The notes under the pieces were generated by a model that was not told the origin of the DNA, did not search any database, and saw only the letters and a list, made by a program, of their open reading frames with translations. The position numbers were made by a program, and so were the translations under genes. 64,000 bases of DNA from Microbacterium sp. ProA8 (GTDB taxonomy: Bacteria; Actinomycetota; Actinomycetes; Actinomycetales; Microbacteriaceae). Location of the stretch: assembly GCF_039905635.1 (NCBI RefSeq), contig NZ_CP157000.1, positions 1,488,001 through 1,552,000 on the forward strand, in the 5' to 3' direction. Shown piece after piece: positions 48,192 to 51,574 of the stretch (positions are counted from its first letter, which is position 1; every line of letters begins with the position of its first letter).

Positions 48192-50159
48192 TCAGGCGCT
48201 GACGGGCGTGAGCGCCTGTGCGACCAGGCGCTGCAGCGTCGTCATGCCGTCGCGCGACAGGATCGACTCCAGGTGGCCCTGCACGGACGCGAAGCCCGGT
48301 CCGCGCAGCGCGTAGACATCGCCCATGGCATCGGCCGCGATCTCCGCCTCGCCGGCGCGCGTGGTGCCGGCGGGCACACGGGCCGTGAAGGTGTTGTAGA
48401 AGCCGATGGATGCCGGCGTCCCGAAGACGTCGACGGACTTCTGCAGTCCCTGGTGCGGCGCGTCGAGCGGTGCGAGACCGATCCCGAAGGTGTCGGCGAG
48501 GATCTGGTGGCTGAGGCACACGGCGAGGAGCGGCCGGCCGGCTTCGCGTCGTCGCGCGACGACCTCCCGCATACGACGGATGCGAGGGCTCGACGCGTCC
48601 CGCGGGTCGCCCGGCCCCGGTCCGGAGACCAGCAGCTCGGCGCCATCGACCTGGGAGTCGGTGACCGCGTCCCACGGCGCGATCTCGACGTCGAGTCCGA
48701 GATGGCGGAGCTGGTGCGCGAGCATCGTGGTGAAGCGATCCTCGGCGTCCACGACGAGTGCCGACCGGCCCGCGAACGGTGCGGGGCCGTCGGCGCCCTG
48801 CGGGTTCAGCCAGAACTCGGCGAGGCGCCCGTTGCGCGAGGCCAGCAGCTCGGCGATCGCCGGGTCGTCTGCGAGCCGGCGCGGGGCGGGAGCAGGGGCG
48901 TCCTCGTCGATGACGTAGGCCGCCGCCGCATCCGCCACGGCGACGTTCGTCACCGCGGCGACGGCGGCTTCTGCCGCCGCGTCACGGGGAACGGCGCCGA
49001 TCGCGCCGAGCACTCCGGCCGCCTTCCCGTGCGTCTCGCCGACCTCGCCGTAGGGGTCGGAGTGGCGGACCAGCGTCGCGCCCACCGGGACGCGCAGGCG
49101 GCCGTCCTGGAGGTAGGCGGTGCGGATCAGGATCGGGGCGTCGAGGTCGTGCGTCGCCTCGTCGGCGGCGAGTGTCAGGCGCGGGGTGAACAGCGCCGCC
49201 ACGCCGGAGTAGTAGCCGCGGGGCGTCGTCTCGTGCCGGCTGATGACGGTGCAGGCGTTCTGCATCGGGGAGCCGGTCACGGTCGGCGCGAACATCGTCT
49301 CGCGGAGGATGTCGCGGGGATCCAGCCGGCTGCGTCCCCGCAGGACGTACTCGGTGTGTGTGAGCCGCGACATCTCCTTGAGATGCGGGCCGGTGATGCG
49401 GCCGCCGTCGGAGCAGACGGCGCTCATCATCTTGAGCTCCTCGTCGACGACCATGAACAGCTCCTCGGTCTCCTTCGTGGAGCGGAGGAACTCGGTGAGC
49501 GTCTCGGCGGTCGCGCCCCCGGCCGGGTGGCGGAACGTCCCCGAGATCGGGTTCATGGTGACGACGCCGTCACGGGCGCTGACATGCGCCTCGGGGCTCG
49601 CGCCGACGGCGACATGGCCCGGGGTGACGACCGCGAAGGTCCAGTAGGCGCCCCGCTCGTGCTCGAGGAGAGCCCGGAACCACGTGAGGGCGGCGGTGGC
49701 GGCATCCGTCGACACGCCCGCGGTGAAGTCGCGGCGGATGACGAAATTGGCGCCCTCGCCCCGCCCGATCTCGTCGGCGATCACCCGCCGGACGATGTCG
49801 GCGTACTCCTCGTCGGCGATGTCGAAGCCCGCGTCCTGCAGGGCCACCGGCTCGGTCGGCAGCTGCGCGAGCGCCTCCTCACGGGGGAGCGCCGTCCGCT
49901 CGCGGACGATGAGGCAGCGCAGCGGCGCGCCGTCGTCGTGGCACTCGAACCCGCGCTCGCGGACTTGGCGGAACGGCACCAGCGCCAGCACCTCTCGGGG
50001 TGCTCCCGTGTCATCGGCGAGCGGGATGTCGGACAGCAGGTCGACGTCGACGACGTCTCCCGTGAGCAGCTCGACGGTCGCGTCATCACGGGCGATGAGG
50101 GCGAAGGGGATGCCGCGGTCGGCGATCTCGCGGAGCGAGGGGTGGGCGGGCCCGGTCAT
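48192..50159 (-). CDS. trpEG: Anthranilate synthase, fused TrpE-TrpG (PhzE-like architecture)
   Basis: A 655-residue fusion. The chorismate-binding part (about 1-420) has GANFVIRRDFTAGV, NPISGTFRHPAGG, KETEELFMVVDEELKMMS and the ETMFAPTVTGSPMQNACTVI signature. The C-terminal glutamine amidotransferase has nucleophile Cys in LLAVCLSHQILADTFG and the His/Glu pair in VQGHLESIL. PhzE, which makes ADIC for phenazines, has the same architecture, but no phz genes are nearby and the gene is preceded by a trp attenuator (two Trp codons), so tryptophan supply is the likelier role. ATG at 50159, AAAGAA upstream. Upstream in-frame extension runs through the attenuator and is rejected. Confidence 0.88.
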   Translation of the reverse strand: MTGPAHPSLREIADRGIPFALIARDDATVELLTGDVVDVDLLSDIPLADDTGAPREVLALVPFRQVRERGFECHDDGAPLRCLIVRERTALPREEALAQLPTEPVALQDAGFDIADEEYADIVRRVIADEIGRGEGANFVIRRDFTAGVSTDAATAALTWFRALLEHERGAYWTFAVVTPGHVAVGASPEAHVSARDGVVTMNPISGTFRHPAGGATAETLTEFLRSTKETEELFMVVDEELKMMSAVCSDGGRITGPHLKEMSRLTHTEYVLRGRSRLDPRDILRETMFAPTVTGSPMQNACTVISRHETTPRGYYSGVAALFTPRLTLAADEATHDLDAPILIRTAYLQDGRLRVPVGATLVRHSDPYGEVGETHGKAAGVLGAIGAVPRDAAAEAAVAAVTNVAVADAAAAYVIDEDAPAPAPRRLADDPAIAELLASRNGRLAEFWLNPQGADGPAPFAGRSALVVDAEDRFTTMLAHQLRHLGLDVEIAPWDAVTDSQVDGAELLVSGPGPGDPRDASSPRIRRMREVVARRREAGRPLLAVCLSHQILADTFGIGLAPLDAPHQGLQKSVDVFGTPASIGFYNTFTARVPAGTTRAGEAEIAADAMGDVYALRGPGFASVQGHLESILSRDGMTTLQRLVAQALTPVSA

Positions 50160-50205: not shown

Positions 50206-50226
50206 AGACCGCCCCGAGGGCGGTCT
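50206..50226 (-). terminator. trp attenuator terminator
   Basis: On minus, AGACCGCCC and GGGCGGTCT form a perfect 9-bp stem with a 3-base loop, followed by TCTTCTTC. It lies between the leader peptide stop and trpEG, 46 bases before the trpEG start. A second small stem CACCGC/GCGGTG at about 50241-50256 overlaps the leader stop codon and could be the competing structure. Confidence 0.75.
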
Positions 50227-50247
50227 GGGTCGCGCGAAACCCACCGC

Positions 50248-50286
50248 CTATGCGGTGAGCCACCAGGTGGTGAGGCGTGCGGACAT
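50248..50286 (-). CDS. trpL: trp leader peptide (12 residues, two adjacent Trp codons)
   Basis: Reading minus from ATG at 50286: MSARLTTWWLTA then TAG. Two consecutive TGG codons in a 12-codon ORF just upstream of an intrinsic terminator and an anthranilate synthase gene is the classic arrangement for ribosome-mediated attenuation: stalling at Trp codons when charged tRNA-Trp is scarce would prevent terminator formation. A TAGGTT -10 box ends six bases before its ATG, so the leader peptide itself would be translated from a leaderless mRNA. Confidence 0.8.
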   Translation of the reverse strand: MSARLTTWWLTA

Positions 50287-50292
50287 GCGCCG

Positions 50293-50298
50293 AACCTA
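50293..50298 (-). promoter_or_regulatory. Leaderless -10 box of the trpL-trpEG unit
   Basis: TAGGTT on minus, exactly six bases before the leader peptide ATG. The -35 region is not a good match. It lies 41 bases after the ltrA stop. Confidence 0.5.
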
Positions 50299-50338
50299 CC
50301 ACACCGCCCATGGCCCTCGTCGGCCGCCGTCGCGGACG

Positions 50339-51574
50339 TCACGTCTGCCGCGCGCGCTCCAGGATCTCGGCACCGTGACGCCAGCCGATCGTCTCGTAGC
50401 CGACCACCACCACGGCGGGCGCGCACGCGATGAGCAGCAGCGCCACTCCGAGTGACGCGCCCGCCAACACGGCGATGACGCTCGCGGCGAGGAACGCGAC
50501 CGAGCCCACGTAGAGCCAGATGTGGAACGGATCGAACTGCATGACGGTCAGCGCGTAGATGCCGAACAGGAACGTCTCGTAGACGAGCACCGGGATCGCG
50601 ATGCTCAGCACGGCGAACGTCTCATCGACGTGCGCGTGGTGTGAGATGACGTTCGCGGCGACGTGGAGTCCGGCGCCGACGGCGATCAGCGACCCGAAGA
50701 CGAAGAGGTGCAGATATCCCCACGGGAACCCGCGCCAGCGATGATGCGTGAGCACCTCGCCGAACGGGATGACGAAGTAGCTCCACCACATGCCGAACGC
50801 CAGCGCGGTCCCGGCGAAGGCGATGAGGGCGGCCTCCATTGACCAGACGTCGTCCTGCACGACGGCGGAGATCGCGAGGATGGTGCCGAGGATCACCTCG
50901 CCCAGGGTGATGATGACGAGCAGGCCGTAGCGCTCCGCGATGTGGTGGGCATGCCAGGGCGTGGGTCCGAACCGCTTCTCGGCGAACAGCGGTCCCGCGA
51001 GTTCGAACAGCATGAGCAGCGTGGTGAACACCAGCGTCGTGCCGACGGGCAGGTTCAGGAAGATCAGCACGATCCAGCCGAGTTGGGCGATCGACACGTT
51101 GACGATGTACGCCAGACAGGTCTTGCGGCGCTTCTCGTCCTGCACGGCAGCGCGGATCCAGAGCGCGATGGTCGCCACGCGCATGACGACGTACCCGACC
51201 ACCATGACGGTGTTGTCCAGGTAGTGGCCCTCGTCGATCGAGTGGAACACGTCCGGCACGCCGAGCGCCACGATCAGCACGCCGACCATCACGACCAGCG
51301 TCGAGACGCGGAAGTAGGCGTCGTCGGTGTCGTAGGCCGACGCCAGCCACGAGTAGTTGATCCACGCCCACGTGACGGCGAATGTCGAGAAGGCGAAGCC
51401 GATGAGGGCCGACGAGACGTGGCCGAGCTCCAGGTAGTGGGCCATCTGCGACGAGATCTGGCTGAAGGCGACGACGAACGTCAGGTCGAACAGCAGCTCC
51501 AGCGGGGTCGCTGCCCGATGGGCCTCGTTCGGGTCCCTGCCGGTCATGCGTCCGAGGTGGTGGCTCAGGCTCAT
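50339..51574 (-). CDS. LtrA-family (low temperature requirement A) membrane protein
   Basis: A 411-residue protein with about 11 membrane helices. The family signature TPLELLFDLTFVVAFSQISSQMAHYL is near the N-terminus, and the conserved EKRFGPTPWHAHHIAERYGLLVIITLGEVILGT is central. LtrA was named from a Listeria cold-growth mutant; its biochemical role is unknown. Transcribed toward the trp leader, 53 bases away, with its own upstream region near 51600. Confidence 0.9.
   Translation of the reverse strand: MSLSHHLGRMTGRDPNEAHRAATPLELLFDLTFVVAFSQISSQMAHYLELGHVSSALIGFAFSTFAVTWAWINYSWLASAYDTDDAYFRVSTLVVMVGVLIVALGVPDVFHSIDEGHYLDNTVMVVGYVVMRVATIALWIRAAVQDEKRRKTCLAYIVNVSIAQLGWIVLIFLNLPVGTTLVFTTLLMLFELAGPLFAEKRFGPTPWHAHHIAERYGLLVIITLGEVILGTILAISAVVQDDVWSMEAALIAFAGTALAFGMWWSYFVIPFGEVLTHHRWRGFPWGYLHLFVFGSLIAVGAGLHVAANVISHHAHVDETFAVLSIAIPVLVYETFLFGIYALTVMQFDPFHIWLYVGSVAFLAASVIAVLAGASLGVALLLIACAPAVVVVGYETIGWRHGAEILERARQT

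Follow-up and report, generated by a model that had tools for sequence, protein, structure and literature searches.

A ribosome-mediated trp attenuator (trpL) on a leaderless transcript very probably controls a fused TrpEG in Microbacterium sp. ProA8, and this enzyme is most likely the sole anthranilate synthase of the cell. The reading is built on the sequence elements, their conservation and the computed energies of the ribosome states; from these we infer the transcription start, leaderless translation, ribosome stalling, the response to tryptophan and the production of anthranilate. The model proposes that transcription would begin with the A of the leader's ATG and that a ribosome would load on the resulting 5'-terminal AUG without a Shine-Dalgarno site. 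When charged tRNA-Trp is scarce, the ribosome would stall at TGG TGG and cover RNA segment 1, so that segment 2 could pair with segment 3 and the gene would be transcribed. When tryptophan is ample, the ribosome would reach the stop codon and mask segment 2, whereupon segments 3 and 4 would pair and transcription would end; with no ribosome, segment 2 would be held by upstream RNA and the terminator would form as well. A broader proposal, on which our judgement is evenly divided, is that the attenuator requires its start codon at the very 5' end in order to work, with promoter, start codon and sensor codons in a fixed layout for immediate ribosome loading, and that PhzE-like TrpEG displaced TrpE in Microbacterium and some relatives, moving the entry into tryptophan synthesis out of the his-trp cluster, where the gene is apparently unattenuated, to an unlinked gene under attenuation.

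Architecture of the Leader Region

The window, which is the whole 64,000-nucleotide stretch that was analysed, lies within one 4.37-Mb contig, and the element occupies the intergenic region on its minus strand that runs from the ltrA stop codon, ending at 50339, to the ATG of the fused gene at 50159 (Table 1). The first-pass annotation, which was made from the sequence alone, had described a minus-strand TAGGTT six bases before the ATG of the leader, and was right in coordinates and description; the two adjacent Trp codons followed by a stop, and the terminator stem with its tail, were likewise found where it had placed them. The competing small stem that it named is better described as a system of four segments. 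The window thus holds a short tandem-Trp ORF before a gene with an inferred role in tryptophan synthesis, as expected of an attenuator, together with an intrinsic terminator whose hairpin is followed by a U-rich tail, TTCTTCTTC; RNAfold extends the hairpin by a ninth pair, A-U, formed with the tail's first T. A search of Rfam returned sub-threshold matches only, Trp_leader (RF00513) among them at 20 bits (E 0.37) against a gathering cut-off of 41. The element is not a member of that model, although it would work like the attenuators that the model describes.

Table 1. Elements of the putative attenuator and the gene downstream of it, in window positions.
Feature	Position	Strand	Remarks
Extended -10 promoter element TGG-TAGGTT	50293..50301	-	From sequence and conserved TANNNT; predicted start site is the A of the leader ATG
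TAGGTT box	50298-50293	-	From sequence; spacer CGGCGC (six bases) to the ATG
Leader start codon ATG	50286-50284	-
trpL leader ORF MSARLTTWWLTA*	50248..50286	-	12 residues; presumably translated from leaderless mRNA
Tandem Trp codons TGG TGG	50265-50260	-	Putative sensor; invariant in 88 of 88 aligned rows, all preselected for WW
Leader stop codon TAG	50250-50248	-
Segment 1, CACCGC	50257-50252	-	Within the codons after WW; pairs with segment 2
Segment 2, GGCGGTGGGT	50248-50239	-	Includes last base of stop codon; 5' half of antiterminator
Segment 3, ACCCAGACCGCCC	50230-50218	-	Common to antiterminator and terminator
Segment 4	50214-50207	-	3' part of terminator hairpin
Intrinsic terminator hairpin	50225-50207	-	8 bp, 3-nt loop
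T-rich tract TTCTTCTTC	50206-50198	-	From sequence
Fused chorismate-binding and glutamine-amidotransferase gene (trpEG, PhzE-like)	48192..50159	-	655 aa

Predicted RNA Pairing

The RNA was folded as far as segment 3, with the leading edge of the ribosome assumed to lie at +13 from the A site. With the ribosome placed on the first or the second Trp codon, the 2:3 antiterminator then came out at -17.1 kcal/mol, compared with -2.9 kcal/mol for the fold with the ribosome at the stop codon, and the ribosome-free RNA folded at -28.1 kcal/mol with segment 2 paired upstream. Once segment 4 was included, the minimum-energy fold contained the terminator in every ribosome state, and antitermination must therefore be kinetic. 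In relatives, segment 1 falls within the codons downstream of WW, and segment 2 either shares bases with the leader stop codon or comes after it, the geometry on which such a switch depends. The 2:3 and 3:4 pairings are thus predicted to be mutually exclusive and are placed for selection by a ribosome at the Trp codons or at the stop codon, this exclusivity being based on conserved complementarity with little covariation. Conservation of the pairing was assessed in an alignment of 88 rows, obtained from 105 leader-bearing loci by dropping L031 (no terminator match) and identical sequences. Every cell (100%) of the terminator stem held a standard pair, two double changes were seen, and the pairing exceeded that of all but 2 of 500 shuffles. 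Segments 2 and 3 were paired in 93.9% of cells, a level that shuffles also reach since these columns show hardly any variation, and the 1:2 pairing, held to one register, was present in 81.6%, also no better than shuffles and with no covariation signal. When any register was allowed, a helix of at least 5 bp was found in 102 of 105 loci both for 1:2 (against 50 of 105 letter-shuffled) and for 2:3 (against 30 of 105). Covariation of the stems, which the first-pass annotation had put forward as a check, was tried as proof of the RNA structure and set aside: the conserved pairing and the two double changes in the terminator were there, but the covariation was thin, since the true columns are nearly invariant and sliding the partners by 3 columns raised the score for the terminator (0.035 true, 0.075 slid), 2:3 and 1:2 alike. 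An automatic terminator scan with a fixed T threshold accepted 82 of the 105 loci and missed 23, and chose a weak, wrong hairpin for some loci, such as L045 and L070.

Conservation Across Relatives

Loci homologous to the fused gene were gathered in two sets. The first comprised 110 loci, 30 from the family Microbacteriaceae and 80 named loci; the second comprised 60, 24 from a class survey and 36 fetched by place, three of which (L115, L175, L176) are also family members. Two class survey matches (G388:C85 and G358:C1:7966019) were left out, and among the total of 170 one gene (G227) is counted twice, as L033 without and as L175 with a leader. A WW leader ORF was found at 142 of the 170 loci, and a TANNNT box stands 6-8 bases before the start codon of all 142, at 6, 7 and 8 nt in 80, 61 and 1 of them; leaders were picked with a box at 5-8 nt, and the same listings, which also reported WW ORFs without a box, gave none of these among the loci of either set. 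In the first set, 105 of 110 loci carried the leader with its box (at 6 bases in 69 and 7 in 36), and in the second, 37 of 60 had a WW or WWW leader with a box (at 6, 7 and 8 bases in 11, 25 and 1). A promoter element placed for transcription to start at the start codon, as expected of a leaderless mRNA, is thus present in every leader, compared with 3 of 1246 other ATG or GTG codons upstream of the 105 leader-bearing first-set loci with a box at 6-7 nt. The extended form, TGnTAnnnT, was found at 80 of these 105 loci, in whose base counts no clear -35 element appeared. SD-like tetramers at -16 to -4 were found in 0 of 105 first-set and 0 of 37 second-set leaders, an absence that is partly forced, since the box occupies much of the stretch searched; the counts in four more distant upstream control stretches ranged from 6 to 15 of 105. 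The leader-bearing loci are spread over many genera and six families (f1, f21, f22, f23, f30 and f38), and the 60-base stretches upstream were distinct in all 105, although the loci are related and their counts are therefore not independent. The attenuation proposed by the first-pass annotation is thus supported, both by the leaders and by the 2:3 helices at the loci tested, and the leaderless reading of the ORF is likewise supported by comparative sequence across the 142 loci. That annotation had also stated beforehand that lack of conservation of the WW codons in relatives would count against it; they are conserved. A genome-wide WW-to-stop pattern proved too loose to be of use, giving 69 and 72 matches against 119 and 111 in the control, and its TRR also admits TGG.

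The Fused Gene and the Canonical trpE

The product of the gene joins PF00425 (Chorismate_bind) and PF00117 (GATase) in one chain of 655 aa, as expected of a fused TrpEG, and its closest named relatives are in M. yannicii DSM 23203 (93%) and Microbacterium sp. B35-30 (96% in the best segment). Its nearest solved relative is 3r74, which we take to be PhzE, an ADIC synthase. The fused anthranilate synthase gene of the first-pass annotation therefore stands as a fused, two-domain gene, but because the enzyme is PhzE-like in sequence, the name anthranilate synthase is a putative one. It has been reported that sequence gives no indication of the difference between ADIC and anthranilate synthases (PMC5958127). 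The PF04715 (Anth_synt_I_N) domain of TrpE was not found in the own genome and was present in 14 of 14 control genomes. Three chorismate-binding proteins are encoded there, namely the fused one, a PabB-like one, which at 322.5 comes slightly short of its cut-off of 328.4, and an isochorismate synthase. The cut-offs of the TrpB, TrpC and TrpD models were passed; a second Glycos_transf_3 protein is thymidine phosphorylase, and a putative trpA, which follows trpB, was recognised only by its start. In 20 of 20 family genomes hand-picked from those listed with a canonical trpE, 11 of which also carry the fused gene, trpE follows shortly after hisI, the distance from the end of the hisI match to the TrpE domain match being roughly 70 to 170 bases as worked out by hand. 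In the own genome (L004, C1:2061477-2061480), at the place that trpE occupies in the relatives, the last four bases of hisI (PRA-CH) are instead shared with the start of Trp_oprn_chp, so that trpE looks to have been excised from the his-trp cluster. Since the canonical TrpE is missing and hisI overlaps the gene expected after trpE, the attenuated PhzE-like TrpEG seems to have displaced TrpE in this genome. No boxed WW leader was found upstream of the canonical trpE in any of the 20 Microbacteriaceae genomes (L207-L226), which gave one WW ORF, without a box.

Across the family, the fused gene occurs in 31 of 249 genomes (E below 1e-100). PF04715 is absent from 15 of the 249, of which 10 are carriers of the fused gene (Fisher p = 4e-7, with relatedness ignored); the five non-carriers without it (G015, G061, G206, G219, G247) are small or incomplete genomes, and three further carriers (G050, G175, G224) have weak PF04715 matches only. 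A PF04715 match is kept in 21 of the 31 carriers, and displacement of TrpE is therefore not general; among the four genomes of the own genus in the 249, three are without it.

Alternative Explanations

The attenuator could be real and a longer transcript, such as read-through from ltrA, nevertheless be the main template for translation of its leader, with TANNNT secondary or coincidental. The ltrA gene has the same orientation and stops 40 bases short of the box, so that transcription continuing past it could yield a leadered transcript as well. However, the box stands 6-8 nt before all 142 leaders and was rare at 6-7 nt before background start codons, and Table 4 of PMC8079986 reports S. lividans TrpL1 as leaderless, which makes it quite improbable that the longer transcript is the main one. 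As for a short ORF that arose by chance beside an ordinary intergenic terminator, when the 350 upstream bases were dinucleotide-shuffled 20000 times, 260 of the shuffles held a WW ORF of up to 25 codons and a single one held such an ORF with TANNNT at 6-7 nt. Chance alone may thus produce the arrangement once in a great while, but conservation over many genera and several families contradicts it, and the idea is hardly credible.

A different possibility concerns the product: the gene may make ADIC for a secondary product, as PhzE does, with its tryptophan control incidental or a relic. This would fit the choice of 3r74 as best solved relative, the fact that no NCBIfam TrpE equivalog cut-off was reached among the best 25 models listed, and the unattenuated paralogues in six genomes. 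A scan of three neighbours, however, gave GcpE, LtrA and a sigma-factor-like protein, conservation extends to the Trp codons, and the own genome has TrpB, TrpC and TrpD with no canonical TrpE and with trpE missing from its usual place. We regard a dedicated ADIC role as highly improbable, and the fused enzyme as most likely serving tryptophan synthesis under the leaderless attenuator.

Relation to Known Attenuators

Trp attenuators and leaderless trpL are already known, so that the novelty of the element itself is small. Classical trp attenuators with double or triple UGG codons were predicted in Corynebacterium and Streptomyces in 2005 (PMC1262725), where experiments in C. glutamicum and S. 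venezuelae are cited; the S. venezuelae attenuator is that of Lin et al. 1998, as cited in PMC4833913 and PMC1262725, and a fused anthranilate synthase of S. venezuelae appears as a reference title in PMC5958127. The first-pass annotation had called the leaderless leader unusual, which does not hold, as leaderless trpL was already reported in Actinobacteria: according to Table 4 of PMC8079986, TrpL1 of S. lividans (MFAHSTRNWWWTAHPAAH), which precedes a monocistronic trpE, is leaderless by RNA-seq. Given this report and the conservation of box and leader in relatives, the leaderless layout appears to be the pattern of the element in the loci seen and no oddity. The leaders of L143 (MFAHSTQNWWWTAHPAAH) and L125 differ from TrpL1 by one to three residues and precede homologues of the window gene, such TrpL1-like leaders occurring in genomes of family f22, and the S. 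lividans trpE is therefore probably also a homologue of the fused gene. The Streptomyces trpL-trpE system resembles the present one in its adjacent Trp codons, leaderless leader (S. lividans), hairpins, uridine-rich stretch and monocistronic trpE; TrpL1 has 18 residues with three Trp, whereas the window leader has 12 with two, and, unlike in that system, canonical trpE seems to have been lost from the own genome.

The Corynebacterium attenuators, as outlined in PMC1262725, share classical attenuation and tandem UGG codons with the window element, but control trp operons. For the C. diphtheriae trp leader (MTNMNAHNWWWRA) no start site was identified (PMC5784534), and in C. glutamicum the trp start is placed in front of trpL (PMC11995493), so that a leaderless trpL may not be general for Actinobacteria. 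Outside the phylum, the 5' end of Sinorhizobium meliloti trpL-trpE(G) (rnTrpL/peTrpL) is reported at the ATG of a leader ORF of 14 aa (PMC7298713), a likeness to the present layout, although trans action of the attenuated RNA and of the peptide is described there. Leaderless cysteine attenuators have also been reported (PMC9031893), and the mycobacterial polycysteine ORFs of Canestrari 2020, as cited in PMC9031893 and PMC13236596, likewise use a short leaderless ORF as an amino-acid sensor, but for cysteine and other operons. The open-licence literature searched yielded nothing direct on SCO2117, on Microbacterium trp attenuators or on PhzE with Trp biosynthesis. The element is thus a further, well conserved case of a type of switch that related soil bacteria were known to have, and what the present data add is that an attenuated fused enzyme has apparently taken the place of trpE. 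This suggests that a leaderless sensor ORF is a conserved design of the attenuator and not a curiosity, so that the part which leaderless initiation plays in coupling transcription to translation becomes testable on a single small element. The data also point to genomes without the usual trpE in which a PhzE-like fused enzyme, apparently attenuated by tryptophan, looks like the sole entry to tryptophan synthesis.

Loci Without the Leader

The five exceptions among the 110 first-set loci were two contig ends (L066, L113), L033, a partial match for which the same gene refetched as L175 does have a leader, L027, whose leader has a single W, ends RWPAS and stands behind a TAGACT box, and L014, in a 1.4-Mb genome, where the WW leader has been lost. 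At L014:3370-3355 (minus), a TAGCAT box stands 7 bases before the ATG of trpEG itself; with the leader gone and the box so placed, this gene looks to be both leaderless and unattenuated. In the second set, 23 of 60 fused homologues lacked a WW leader (L126, L129, L130, L136, L138, L144, L152-L156, L158, L163-L166, L168-L174). Six genomes (G287, G337, G358, G386, G387, G396) hold one copy with the leader and a second copy without it, so that unattenuated paralogues exist. In a tree of 63 rows, in which the named loci were represented by a sample and the LEAD label took in the single-W leader of L027, 5 of 6 leader-lacking rows fell outside Microbacteriaceae, and no claim on origin is made because the deep branches are weak. 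At L164, a box precedes a leader with a single Trp codon (SSWRAA). At L028, where the leader is present, the frame of the homologue ends 153 codons from the match start, with one TAG inside the match, and this may be either a broken gene or a sequence error.
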